NCBI GenBank assembly: GCA_025786725.1
Contig: JAHLTZ010000039.1
Coordinates: forward strand, 1 to 64,000
Origin: Syncephalis fuscata
Taxonomy: Eukaryota; Zoopagomycota; Zoopagomycetes; Zoopagales; Piptocephalidaceae
Length of the DNA stretch: 64,000 nucleotides
Direction: 5' to 3'
A model generated the notes under the pieces. The model did no database searches and had not been told where the DNA came from. It was given only the letters and a program-made list of their open reading frames with translations. Positions 28,821 through 59,485 of this stretch are shown here, in pieces (position 1 is the stretch's first letter; the number at the start of each line of letters is the position of its first letter). The position numbers and the translations under genes were made by a program.

Positions 28821-29381
28821 AATGTAGTGCTAGGTTGTTAACAATCAACAATTATTCTTATATCAACACCAGTACAATATCATTTCATTATATGATAGTG
28901 ATAAATTTGTTACTATCCATAATATATTTACAAATAAATACTGGCAATTTTATTGCCAATATATATTACTAAAATATTCATATTTAACATTAATATATTC
29001 ATACTGACCTATGTTTATGGCTAATACAATATAATTGTACATGTTTTTTTTGTTAATTTACCTATTTGATTAATAGTTGTTAATTTCTAAATGCAAATAA
29101 AAATAAATGTAAATATAGCAATTTGATTGTATATATCTATGATGGAACCATAAGTTTATTACAAGTTTGTACGTTGTATAGGGGCAACTAGATGCAAGTT
29201 TGTTGATAAAATAGTGATTCCATTGATTAAAGACTGGATAAACCGGAGCATTGGCCAAAACTTAATATATAAATAGACTGGACGGCGTAGTTGTCAAATG
29301 GTCTTGCTTTTTACCGAATATATATCTAAAGTGTATTGGAATAGTGATTCGATTGCACTACCAATGTTAATGCTCTTATGG

Positions 29382-32300
29382 CTATGGATTGGCTGCATTT
29401 ATAAATAAAGATATTACACGTTATATAATTAATATATAAGTCAATTAATATTCAGTAAAACTTACGGACTATTAATATTAATATATTAACACACACAATA
29501 CATGGTATATGATTAATTTATAACTCGGCAATATACAATGCTACTTACTACCTATTGATATTAAGTATTGATGCATATGCTCGATTGCATGTTACATGAT
29601 GCGTAACATGTAATTAGCCAATGCCCAATTAACATACAGTACAACTTACCAGCTATTAATATTAATATATTAATACACACAATACATGATATATAATTAA
29701 TTTATAAGCCGGCAATATACAATACTACTTACCGCCTATGATTATCAAGTCATTGATGTACATGATGCGTAACATGTAATTAGCCAATGCCCAATTAATA
29801 TACAATACAACTTACAGGCTATTAATATCAAGTTGTTGATACGCATGGTGTATAACGCATAATTAGCACATAGTCAGTTAATATACAATACTACTTACGG
29901 CCTATTATTAAGTTATTGATACACACAACACATAATACATAATTAGCCAATGCCCAATCGATATACAATACAACTTACCAGCTATTATATTACGTTGTTA
30001 ATAAACAAAATACATAATATATAATTAACTTATAAGCCAGAAATATACAATGCTACTTACCGCCTATTGATATTAAGTTGCCGATATACGCATTAAATAG
30101 CATGTGATTAGTGCATTGCCAATTAATACACAATATAACTTACAAGCTATTAATAAGGTTGTTAATGTATACAGTATATAGTTAATTTATAGTCAGTTAA
30201 TATACAATACAACTTACTTCCTATTAATGTTAAATAATCAGTGCAGCCAGTAAATGGCATATTTAATATATGGTCAACTAATATACAATATCACTTACTC
30301 CCTATTAATATTAAATAAGTAGTGCAATCAGCAAATAGCATAGTTAATGTATAGTCAGTTGGTATACACTACCACTTACGTTCTATTAATATTAAACAAT
30401 TAATATCATTAGTAAATAATATAGTTAATTTATAGTCAGTTAATACACAATACAACTTACTACCTATTAATATTAAGTTGTTGATGCATACAATAAATAA
30501 CATGTGATTAGTGCATAGTTAATTAATACACAATATGACTTACAAGCTATTAATAAGATTGTCGGTGCATGCAGTGCATAGTATATAGTTAACGAGCCAT
30601 CATCAATTAATGTGTAATATCACTTACCATCTATTATTATTAAATAGTTAGTACCATCATTAAATAGCACGGTTAATGTACTGTCAAGGAATATACAATA
30701 TCACCTACCGCCTATTAATATTAAACAATTGGTACAATCAGTATCATAGTTAATGTATAGTCGGCTAATACACAATATCACTTACCATCTATTAATATTA
30801 AACAATTGGTACCATTAGTAAACAGCAGTTAATGTATAGTCAGTTAATATACAATATTACTTACTGTCTATTAATATTAAATAATTGGTACAGTCAGTAA
30901 ATAGCACGGTTAATGTATAGTCAAAGAATCTACAATATCACTTACCGCCTATTAATATTGAACAATGGGTACAGCCAGTAAATAGCATGGTTAATGTACA
31001 GTCAAGGAATATACAATATCACTCACCATCTATTAATATTAAATAATTAATATCATTAGTAAATAGCATAGTTAATGTATAGTCGATTAATATATAATAT
31101 CACTTACTGTCTATTAATATTAAATAATTGGTACAGTCAGTAAATAGCATAGTTAATGTATAGTCGGCTAATATATACTATCACTTACTAGCTATTAATA
31201 TTAAATAATTGGTACATTCAGTGAATAACAGTTAATTATAGTTAGTTAATATACAATATTACTTACCCTCTATTAATATTAAATAATTGATACAGTCAGT
31301 AAATAGCATATTTAATGTACAGTCAAAGAATATACAATATTACTCACGTTCTATTAATATTAAATAATGGGTACAGTCAGTAAATAGTATAGTTATTTAT
31401 ATTCAGTTAATATACAATGTTACTTACTGACTATTAATATTAAGTAATTGGTACAATCAGTAAATAATATATTTATGTATAGTCAGTTATTATACAACAC
31501 AACTTACAACCTATTATAATAAATTGTTGCATACAATAAATAGCATGTGATTAGTGCATAGTCAGTTAATACACAATATAACTTACAAACTATTGTATTA
31601 AGTTGTTGATACACACAGTACATAGTGTATAGTTAGTGCATAATTAATTAATACTTAATATAAATTACCCCCTATGATGTTAAGTTATTGATACACACAA
31701 CAAAATACATAATTAGCTAATGTTCAATTAATATACAATATAACCTACATTCTATTAATATTAAATTGTTGATACACATAATACATGGTATAAAATTAGC
31801 ACATAGTCGGTTAATATACAATACAACTTACGACCTATTATTAAGTTATTGATACACACAACACAATACATAATTAGCCAGTGTTTAATTAGTATACAAT
31901 ATAACCTACATTCTATTGATATTAAGTTGTTGGTATACATAGTACATGATATAAAATTAATTTATAAGCCAAAAATATACAATGCTACTTACGACCTATC
32001 AATATCAAATTGTTAATATACACAATCATGGTATATAATTAATTTATAAGCCATCAATATACAATGCTACTTACGGCCTATCAATATTAGGTTGTTGATA
32101 CACATGGTGCATAACATGTAATTAGTGAGTAATCAAATAATATACAATAAAACTTACAATACTCTAATGTTGATTTGTTGGTGGATACAGTCATGATATA
32201 TAGTTATTTTATACTCTATTAATATGTAATACAACCTACCAATTGCTAATATCAATTTGTTAATGCATACAGTGCATAACACGTAATTAATAAATAATCA

Positions 32301-32739
32301 ATTGATATACAATACAACTTGCCTGACGCTAATATTAAGTCGTTTAAACACAGTGCATATTATTTAATTAATGTATGTTCTATTGATATGTAATACAACC
32401 TACTAGCTATTGATATTAATTTGTTAACACATACAGTGCATAACATGTAATTAGTAATTAACCATTCAATACACAATACGACTTACATTCTATTATATAA
32501 ATAATTGGTACAATCAATGAATAGCATAATTAATGTATAGTCAGCTAATATACGGTATAACTTACCATCTATTATAATAATTATTTGGAAATATTGTTAG
32601 TAAACAAAATGTTATGATATATTTATTGTTATTGCAACATACCACCACGACGAACTAAGGCTGGATTAGCATCCACCATAGTTGTAGTGGCCACAAGAGC
32701 CATGACAATAGTGCAAACGACGGCAGTGGAAAGCTTCAT
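29382..32739 (-). CDS. Micro-exon gene for a secreted six-cysteine peptide (41 exons)
   Basis: Exon 1 (32739-32643, 97 nt) encodes a signal peptide (MKLSTAVVCTIVMALV...VDA) and then a dibasic RR, and ends in phase 1 at GTATGT. It is followed by 39 micro-exons, lowest coordinates 32566, 32487, 32404, 32323*, 32240*, 32158*, 32075, 31993, 31910, 31832, 31749, 31669, 31587, 31508, 31428, 31348, 31267, 31189, 31108, 31027, 30946, 30865, 30786, 30709, 30628, 30544, 30461, 30380, 30299, 30218, 30144, 30061, 29979, 29899, 29816, 29733, 29650, 29549, 29466. Starred ones are 6 nt, the rest 3 nt. Each lies between an acceptor (mostly ATTAATAG) and a GTAAGT-like donor. The last exon is 29392-29382 with a TAG stop. 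Exons total 234 nt = 77 codons plus stop. The joined phase-1 frame is open and gives cysteine spacing C-x2-C-x3-C-x12-C-x4-C-x3-C. I recognise no family. Exons this small, in this number, are unlike any ordinary fungal gene. Confidence 0.88.
29393..32642 (-). repeat. Tandem array of 81-bp intron-plus-codon units
   Basis: There are 39 units. Spacing between successive micro-exons ranges from 74 to 101 bp and is mostly 79-84. On the minus strand each unit is a complete intron: GTAAGT at the 5' end, often a TTTACTGAC-like candidate branch site about 25-30 nt from the end, then AATATTAATAG. The units have diverged, but the splice signals are the best-kept part. Three donors are GTAGGT, two are GTGAGT, one is GTAATT and one is GCAAGT (at 32322). 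The trinucleotide between the acceptor of one intron and the donor of the next is the most variable part, as expected if it is the coding portion. Confidence 0.93.
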
Positions 32740-32860
32740 GGTGATATTGATTTGTTAAGACAAACAAATAAAAGAAATAGTAGAGTGTGGTTGGTATAGA
32801 GTGTATAGTAGATAATAGAGTGTGATAATGATATCGCAGTTGGTTGTGTATATTTGTGGG

Positions 32861-32869
32861 CTATTTATA
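32861..32869 (-). promoter_or_regulatory. TATA box of the micro-exon gene
   Basis: Read on the minus strand this is TATAAATAG, about 120 nt upstream of the start codon at 32739. The intervening leader is pyrimidine-rich, and ATATCACC precedes ATG. Position and match to the TATAWAW consensus support a core promoter. No transcript start can be seen. Confidence 0.6.
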
Positions 32870-32989
32870 CTTATGATTATGCTAAAATACTAGTATACTG
32901 TAGTATATGAGATATACATTGATGTGTAGTATGAACTAATAAAACAATTCAAACAACGACTTGAGGTGCACATGTACCAATAAATTCAT

Positions 32990-58472: not shown

Positions 58473-59485
58473 TTATCGTCGTTTGCGTGCAGTAAATTCT
58501 TCATTTTCCCTGGGTCGTTTGTGTCCTTGTTGGGCTAAATATTTGAATGTTTAAATAAAGTTATGTTAAAAATATTTAATTGTTTACCCATCAATTCCTC
58601 GAATTTGCGTATCATCATTGGAACGCGAATATCCTTTGACTTTGAACGTTTGCGTGGCGGAGGTCGTGGCATGACTCTTTTGAACTCTGTTTGCTTTAAT
58701 ATGCATTTGCATATGGGCTTTTTCTCGTATTCTTCTTTTGCTAGCAATAAAGTATGTTTGTTAGCTATTGTAACTAATAAAAGCGTTTTATTACCTATCA
58801 GTGGCGATCTTTTGCGTTGTAACACGTTTTTGTGATTACAAGTGGACAAAACGGCTTGCTGTGTACTCTTCGGTGCGGCCACTGGCGCCTTGTTTCTATC
58901 ATGAAGAGAGTTTAGCTTAGCGCCAGTAGTATTACTTACCTGTTTGCCCGATCGGCGTGATACTGGTTGCGCTATCGATCGTGATGAACGCGATAAATTA
59001 AAAGAACAACTGTTGTTTTTCTTGCTCTTCAAAGCTTGGTCGGCTTTCTTGTTGTTTGCAACTTGGTCGTCTTTCTTGCTCTTCAAAGCTTGCTTGGCTT
59101 TCTTGTTGTTTGCAACTTGGTCGTCTTCCTTGCTCTTCAAAGCTTGCTTGGCTTTCTTGTTGTTTGCAACTTGGTCGTCTTCCTTGCTCTTCAAAGCTTG
59201 CTTGGCTTTCTTGTTGTTTGCAACTTGGTCGTCTTCCTTGCTCTTCAAAGCTTGCTTGGCTTTCTTGTTGTTTGCAACTTGGTCGTCTTTCTTGCTCTTC
59301 AAAGCTTGCTTGGCTTTCTTGTTGTTTGCAACTTGGTCGTCTTCCTTGCTCTTCAAAGCTTGCTTGGCTTTCTTGTTGTTTGCAACTTGGTCGTCCTCAT
59401 TGCTCTTCACAGTATGGTCCTTGGCAGTACGGCTTCTTGTACGGCCGGCAATAGAGCTGTTGGCGGAGTCGGAGATAGTAACCAT
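58473..59485 (-). CDS. Lysine-rich repeat protein, unknown function
   Basis: Starts at 59485 with MVTISDSANSSIAGRTRSRT. It continues into about seven copies of an 18-residue repeat (KSKEDDQVANNKKAKQAL, with E/K variation) encoded by a 54-bp minisatellite, then a basic Ser-rich part (SRRSGKQ), a KEEYEKKPICKCILKQTEF segment and MPRPPPRKRSKSK. The last exon (58536-58473), joined after GTAAAC...TTTAG, ends ENEEFTARKRR. An in-frame 54-nt intron is likely at about 58741-58794. Another GTAAGT at 58940 lacks a frame-preserving acceptor at normal distance. The basic composition suggests a nuclear, nucleic-acid-binding protein. No family is recognised. Confidence 0.7.
59030..59405 (-). repeat. 54-bp coding minisatellite, about 7 copies
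   Basis: Nearly identical 54-bp units. The small differences are mainly TTCCTTG versus TTTCTTG, giving Glu or Lys. Because 54 is a multiple of three, several frames stay open on the opposite strand, giving false Leu/Phe-rich ORFs. The homogeneity implies recent expansion or gene conversion. Confidence 0.95.

Follow-up and report, generated by a model that had tools for sequence, protein, structure and literature searches.

Several gene families have coding sequence divided into very small exons. The nank (NACHT-ANK) family of the truffle Tuber melanosporum is expanded and fast-evolving, carries tens of codon-sized micro-exons and is alternatively spliced (PMC3689799, PMC4986451, citing Iotti et al. 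2012). In the schistosome micro-exon genes (MEGs), symmetric exons, 6 to 36 base pairs (bp) in size, make up about 80% of the coding region, and variation by alternative splicing has been proposed (PMC5825161). The aphid bicycle genes, which are fast-evolving and encode putative effectors, have about 17 exons per gene on average, and almost all of their internal exons start at codon position 2 (PMC9168663). Here we analyzed a stretch of 64,000 nucleotides (nt) from the mycoparasitic fungus Syncephalis fuscata (contig JAHLTZ010000039.1, positions 1 to 64,000; hereafter the window), in which a predicted minus-strand gene joins an ordinary first exon to a tandem array of 39 micro-exons of 3 or 6 nt. 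Syncephalis fuscata is placed in the Zoopagales, Piptocephalidaceae. The members of its genus are mycoparasites, and their genomes look poor in secondary-metabolite genes (PMC10386755).

Like nank, the S. fuscata genes form a fungal family with tens of codon-sized micro-exons (39 in the window gene, 30 to 39 in the arrays that splice cleanly). The nank genes encode NACHT-ANK receptors, whereas the S. fuscata products would be small cysteine-rich peptides; this comparison is by description and not by sequence. No NACHT or ankyrin match was found among the Pfam results of 21 S. fuscata members. A first-pass annotation of the window had stated that genes with single-codon exons by the dozen were not known from fungi, a statement that falls because nank genes are cited as such. 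The truffle precedent makes splicing of this kind in S. fuscata more believable and the finding less unprecedented.

The MEGs resemble the S. fuscata genes in having a coding region largely in tiny symmetric exons (126 of the 234 coding nt of the window gene, or 54%, lie in its 39 symmetric exons) and in encoding variable products of a parasite, secreted in the schistosomes and probably so in S. fuscata. They differ in that the S. fuscata exons are nearly all 3 nt long (423 of 440) and rarely 6 nt, at or below the lower limit of the MEG range, and follow one another in a regular tandem array whose introns resemble repeats, in a fungus. With the bicycle genes the S. fuscata genes share many small internal exons beginning at codon position 2, but the accessible part of that report describes neither one-codon exons nor an array of near-identical introns. 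No sequence relation to the schistosome MEGs or aphid bicycle genes was found (all 13 profile-matched proteins are from S. fuscata, and Pfam was run on 21 members). The S. fuscata family is apparently unrelated to the nank, MEG and bicycle families, and we place it in none of them.

Other precedents concern the splicing process. The constitutive single-nucleotide exon of Arabidopsis APC11 shows that splicing can include exons below the size at which exon definition works (PMC4674806); it is one isolated exon in a conserved gene, whereas in S. fuscata there are dozens in series. At the ratchet points of Drosophila recursive splicing, an acceptor is directly followed by a donor and the intron is removed stepwise (PMC8605326); the messenger RNA keeps nothing at those points, whereas each step in S. 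fuscata would leave one codon (3 nt at 2,716 sites). Tiny exons also occur in fungal mitochondrial genes (PMC12308204), and yeast glycosidase genes have a few micro-exons, the smallest of 5 bp (PMC9142197). Two further papers, PMC4014442 and PMC4545319, go no further than mentioning an option of an aligner. In the open-access literature we found no description of the S. fuscata family, nor of a whole secreted-peptide family made from codon-sized exons. As far as we have seen, the features that set the family apart from nank are a small cysteine-rich, probably secreted product with its whole mature part split, the presence of intronless paralogues, and the phylum.

By sequence similarity, the window array is one member of a large gene family in S. 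fuscata. We consider it very likely that the arrays represent genuine coding genes, divided into exons of a single codon, whose mature cysteine-rich peptide would be put together by serial splicing. The first-pass annotation had proposed for the window a single gene with one-codon micro-exons and a secreted cysteine-rich peptide, and the sequence-level tests reported below (paralogue frames, cysteine order, intronless paralogues with matching ends, AG exclusion, splice-site constraint and the genome-wide 3-nt rule) favor that proposal. The features of the window gene, which runs from 32739 down to 29382, are as follows.

32740..32900, minus strand: 5' flank common to the family, with the TATA-like TATAAATAG at 32869..32861; aligned with 20 other loci, both micro-exon and intronless
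32643..32739, minus strand: exon 1, 97 nt, encoding MKLSTAVVCTIVMALVATTTMVDANPALVRRG plus the first base of the next codon; signal-peptide-like, with a dibasic RR end
32569..32642, minus strand: intron 1, 74 nt, GTATGT...AATAG
29466..32568, minus strand: array of 39 micro-exons (36 of 3 nt, 3 of 6 nt) and 38 introns of about 78 nt, all in phase 1
32323..32328, minus strand: 6-nt micro-exon of the array, with a GC-type donor, GCAAGT
32240..32245, minus strand: 6-nt micro-exon of the array
32158..32163, minus strand: 6-nt micro-exon of the array
29393..29465, minus strand: last intron, 73 nt, GTAAGT...ATGCAG
29382..29392, minus strand: terminal exon, 11 nt, with TAG at its end
29150..29381, minus strand: 3' flank, common to most loci including the intronless ones, with AATAAA at 29160..29155; the exception in the alignment of 21 loci is L040, which is cut short

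Our recount gave the same structure as the first-pass annotation (a 97-nt exon 1 with a GTATGT donor, 36 units that are 3 nt long and 3 that are 6 nt long, and a terminal exon). The units are spaced 74–101 nt apart, with a tandem-repeat period of about 81–83. Splicing would join 97, 126 and 11 nt into 234 nt without an internal stop, which would translate into 77 residues, 45 of them after RRG and with six cysteines, as had been predicted. The N-terminus, read by eye, is hydrophobic and signal-like and has an RR site. Rfam and transfer RNA scans of the 64-kb window gave no matches.

How hard such a frame is to obtain by chance depends on the number of loci considered. When the 39 window units were shuffled (200,000 orders), 11.2% of the orders were stop-free, 0.28% were stop-free with at least six cysteines, and 0.023% also had the cysteine pattern C..C...C. 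The earlier contention that the joined frame is hard to obtain by chance is therefore only suggestive for the single locus; the data from the family make it strong.

Exon 1 used as a query against the 28.95-Mb assembly found 150 similar places including the window gene (150 scored of 316 candidates; E 3.7e-14 to 6.9e-7), among them near-identical copies, several of which are located on short contigs. A second exon-1 query added about two dozen places, counted by eye. Twenty loci were fetched with their full downstream DNA, and they comprise 15 micro-exon arrays and 5 intronless genes. A further view comes from 120 loci (3 of them repeats of others) classified only near exon 1: 63 have a micro-exon start, 26 are intronless, and 18 have an intron without a unit at the threshold; of the rest, 9 could not be assigned clearly and 4 yielded no model.

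We spliced 16 arrays, taken from the best exon-1 matches, using a splicing model that has no reading-frame term. Two other settings, likewise free of such a term, were discarded: disallowing long introns truncated some arrays, and a longer acceptor profile skipped weak units. The 16 arrays contain 527 units, 502 of 3 nt and 20 of 6 nt. Thirteen arrays can be read cleanly all the way, starting in exon 1 and stopping in the terminal exon, with 30–39 units each and 440 units altogether (423 of 3 nt and 17 of 6 nt), and every one of their micro-exons starts at codon position 2. The three remaining arrays (L039, L040 and L051) were dropped from the frame counts.

Across the 13 arrays, the frame set by exon 1 has no stop in 457 codons and encodes 77 cysteines. 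The first-pass annotation had held that phase-1 in-frame stops in relatives would tell against the gene, and these paralogues, with three arrays of 16 set aside, contain none. We rejected the frame in which each micro-exon is a whole codon, which has 5 stops and no cysteine in 457 codons; the third frame has 38 stops in 444 codons and 16 cysteines. The same counts settle an earlier caveat that a second frame is open across the window array: this openness was seen again, and the frame is not coding because it acquires those 5 stops, and no cysteine, over the 13 arrays. In 5,000 shuffles of unit order, on average 0.97 of the 13 arrays were stop-free, with a maximum of 5, as compared with 13 observed.

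The cysteines are also ordered. A six-cysteine pattern occurs in 9 of the 13 arrays, where shuffles of unit order reach at most 1, and C..C...C occurs in 10 of the 13. Among 9 non-redundant arrays, 8 have six cysteines and 7 have C..C...C (shuffled mean 0.12 of 9, maximum 2 in 10,000 shuffles, in which all 9 were never stop-free together).

The intronless paralogues offer a second view of the product. In an alignment of 21 loci, micro-exon and intronless genes match in exon 1, in the flank 5' of it and at the 3' end (CA TAA TCGATGG around the stop in many), which L040 lacks. The 5 intronless loci among the 20 fetched share these ends and the signal peptide, and their cysteine-rich codons are contiguous. 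The spacing C..C...C (C-x2-C-x3-C) occurs in 11 of 21 distinct intronless mature peptides, for instance GDRCTDCIDACTATKKNAVVCLNQCTNQKKCPA. On this comparison, a micro-exon gene looks like an intronless gene whose every codon is interrupted by an intron behind its first base; seen the other way round, an intronless gene looks like a micro-exon gene minus these introns. A tree of 5' ends (111 loci, 192 columns) involves at least 11 changes of state, 2 of them forced by strong branches; it omits 9 of the 120 loci (4 without a model, 3 duplicates and 2 with misplaced starts). This tree is too poorly resolved to favor either intron gain or intron loss as the direction of change.

The array introns carry ordinary splice signals. 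Among 418 introns, 406 are GT-AG and 12 are GC-AG, with the donor GTAAGT in 345. Ordinary introns of neighboring genes have similar GT...AG signals, several of them GTAAGT...ATAG (by eye). The G+C content is 46% in the micro-exons and 24% in the introns. In the three closest pairs of arrays, 12 of 1780 splice-site positions have changed (0.7%), as opposed to 187 of 6903 in the intron interior (2.7%; Fisher 1e-8); exon 1 has changed at 2 of 288 positions (0.7%) and the micro-exons at 11 of 306 (3.6%). In L042 and L045 all 5 differing codons alter the residue, numbers too small for a claim of positive selection, which we dropped. The deeper pairs L050/L051 and L055/L056 show micro-exon changes at 42 of 95 and 23 of 111 positions, values possibly inflated by misalignment of units.

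Whether each precursor RNA would yield one peptide or many is a separate question. In-frame skipping of units could produce combinatorial diversity, as reported for truffle nank and proposed for schistosome MEGs. The units are symmetric (phase 1-1), so that any skip preserves the frame, and exon 1 would even join the terminal exon in frame (97 + 11 nt), both of which speak for such diversity. The number and order of the cysteines are held, however, which suggests one main full-length product, and the splice sites are constrained. We therefore regard many peptides per precursor as possible but rather doubtful.

Several results weigh against reading the arrays as protein-coding genes. The three arrays that are not clean have a 5-nt unit (L039), a premature end (L040) and a frame-breaking 2-nt unit (L051). 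The public gene models P0002, P0005 and P0007 begin with exon 1 of micro-exon-class loci and lack the micro-exon peptide; the ends of P0006 and P0007 seem, by eye, to be translated array-intron sequence. A profile of 12 spliced mature peptides, with L047 excluded as a near copy, gave a weak result: a single intronless member, L093 (0.0046), reached E 0.01 or better; 20 shuffled control profiles and two other-frame profiles found no intronless member. In the three closest pairs, the micro-exons and introns do not differ significantly in their rate of change (p = 0.37; one pair has 0 of 102 micro-exon positions changed). The introns are moreover an unclean neutral yardstick, since the 3' flank changes faster in the same pairs (52 of 745 positions, 7%; 5' flank 26 of 897, 3%).

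The first two of these points would also suit decaying pseudogenes, with only intronless members functional: out of 16 arrays, 3 turned out broken, truncated or not resolvable, and the public models found on micro-exon loci omit the micro-exons. We find this very improbable, given that 13 of 16 arrays are clean over 440 units, that splice sites are constrained in close pairs and that micro-exon loci exceed intronless ones (63 versus 26 of the 120 classified).

Marginally less probable still is the reading as non-coding satellite DNA, in which words resembling splice sites would be an accident of the repeat unit and the open frame a matter of chance. The units are indeed tandem, at about 81 nt, with introns about 70–73% alike within an array, and 11% of the shuffles of the window array are stop-free. 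In addition to the stops, cysteine count and cysteine order across the 13 arrays, and to the intronless paralogues with the same ends, two further properties argue against it, the first being a strict length rule. The exact pattern TAATAG-N3-GTAAGT occurs 2,716 times genome-wide, and the reversed-pattern control 5 times. At other gaps between TAATAG and GTAAGT the counts are 35 for 1–2 nt (control 46), 25 for 4–5 nt (control 36) and 15 for 6 nt (control 7). With the longer acceptor TTAATATTAATAG there are 950 occurrences at 3 nt, 4 at 0–2 nt (all at 2 nt), 1 at 4–5 nt and none at 6 nt. These genome counts need no gene model, and near-identical contigs are counted repeatedly in them. The splicing models took their signal profiles from the window's own 3- and 6-nt units and, in a second round, from units that the first model had found. 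The unit lengths inside arrays are therefore biased toward 3 and 6 nt, a bias that leaves the genome pattern counts unaffected.

The second property is the exclusion of AG upstream of the acceptors. In the stretch from 30 to 14 nt upstream of the intron end, which lies outside the profile that located the units, a single AG was counted over 418 introns (0.15 per kb), versus 154 (8.8 per kb) further inside. The control dinucleotide GA is not depleted in the same region (29.5 versus 26.8 per kb inside). Such exclusion is the pattern expected from selection against false acceptors. Least credible of all is removal of the intervening pieces from DNA instead of RNA (programmed elimination, or a retro-process yielding the intronless copies), which the coexistence of intronless and split forms with the same flanks in one genome might suggest but which fits neither the spliceosomal borders, akin to those of ordinary introns, nor the differences, seen by eye, among the 21 intronless and 13 spliced mature peptides.

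If the arrays are protein-coding genes, as we favor, an ordinary exon 1 would encode a signal peptide ending in RR, and the mature cysteine-rich peptide would come from 30–39 exons that hold a single codon or, occasionally, two, with each intron interrupting a codon between positions 1 and 2. An acceptor and the next donor that lie 3 nt apart are unlikely to be bound simultaneously, for steric reasons. From this distance and the intron size, we infer that the introns of the presumed transcripts are removed serially, 5' to 3'. Each splice would extend the upstream exon by 3 nt and place the next GTAAGT at its edge, a process that would resemble recursive splicing with a one-codon residue. Because the units are near-repeats in one phase, unit slippage or unequal exchange would add or remove whole codons without a frame shift. 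Point changes accumulate in the 3-nt exons at about the intron rate, and the splice signals and the signal peptide are conserved. A secreted, disulfide-rich product is probable; it would be cleaved after RR and would diversify against host fungi. An action on host fungi is suggested by the life style, the signal-like N-terminus, the cysteine pattern and the variation.

Comparisons of units within and between arrays bear on how arrays change. Intron interiors are about 70–73% alike within an array, neighbors slightly more so. Between arrays, the best partners of units are scattered in the middle and 3' parts and, in some pairs, better ordered in the 5' part. In L041/L049 and L042/L049, units 4–9 mostly keep their sequence, displaced by about one unit. 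L043 and L044 (35 versus 32 units) differ in a block of units in mid-array, which reads NANSTDSKPT in one and NGGSKPT in the other; judged from the aligned units, the difference is a codon-sized edit through loss or gain of units.

Splitting is graded across the family, from no splitting at all to one codon per exon. In 7 of 8 loci inspected by eye among the 18 with an intron and no unit at the threshold, small exons are also present, some of 9, 15 or 33 nt. Divergent members with bigger small exons (by eye) are L068, with exons of 9 and 33 nt, and L141 and L148, with 15-nt exons that would encode PLAK-like residues found also in the intronless L143. The 5' ends of L132 and L143 are nearly identical, although L143 is intronless and, in L132, RRG is followed by an intron and no unit can be seen over 300 nt; this contrast is possibly a recent change of architecture.

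Other members vary in different ways. The L040 array ends after 21 units and enters retroelement-like sequence (by eye; L040:2100-2600, gene strand), without the family 3' end. The second intron is 885 nt in L046 and 897 nt in L047, versus about 78 nt elsewhere, and the insertion leaves the frame clean. In L149 and L150 the signal peptide is followed by a longer segment, and many units of the arrays are G-rich (GGG, GGT, GGC), so that other classes of peptide may be split likewise. The intronless L067, L118 and L129 have in common the stretch GPIPPFGACKCRDDDGYCTSC, a second type of mature peptide behind the same signal peptide. A relative of exon 1 lies at 66764-66859 of the window's contig, just beyond the window and about 34 kb from the window gene.

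A profile search of proteins gave 13 at E 0.01 or better (107 candidates), all from S. fuscata and none from other species. The database contains proteins of S. pseudoplumigaleata and Thamnocephalis, as a housekeeping query confirmed, so that this lack of matches is informative for annotated proteins and uninformative for micro-exon genes that are not annotated. No Pfam family matched more than one of 21 members; one member matched Toxin_2 (scorpion short toxin) at 0.0002, and six other families matched one member each, with worse values. We rejected these single matches, including Toxin_2, as homology. A profile search of PDB found nothing (best E 0.37), and an AlphaFold model of the intronless P0001 from a single sequence is helical and not usable (predicted local distance difference test 66, predicted template modeling score 0.39).

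Elsewhere in the window, a 54-bp tandem repeat (59021-59409; 7.2 copies, 97% matches) lies within an open frame at 58535-59485 on the minus strand. It encodes a lysine-rich protein with an 18-residue repeat and without a Pfam match.

Part of a secretome can escape automatic annotation: 4 of the 13 public models (P0001, P0003, P0009 and P0012) are, by eye, identical to intronless frames, and 3 of the 13 lack the micro-exon peptide. As far as we found, the family is a further case, after nank, the MEGs and bicycle, of a fast-changing family with tiny exons in the same phase, mostly in parasites or symbionts. For the spliceosome it would be an extreme natural test on exons too small to recognize, with dozens in a row and thousands of copies in a 29-Mb genome. 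The odds are about even, in our view, that the picture holds in full: a family of secreted peptides in which codon and exon coincide, with more than 2,700 one-codon exons, 30–40 serial, recursive-like steps per transcript and an array that would serve as a device of evolvability, where unequal exchange among units adds, drops or swaps single codons and always keeps the frame. Because intronless, partly split and fully split members coexist in one family, the question of why such splitting arises becomes testable.

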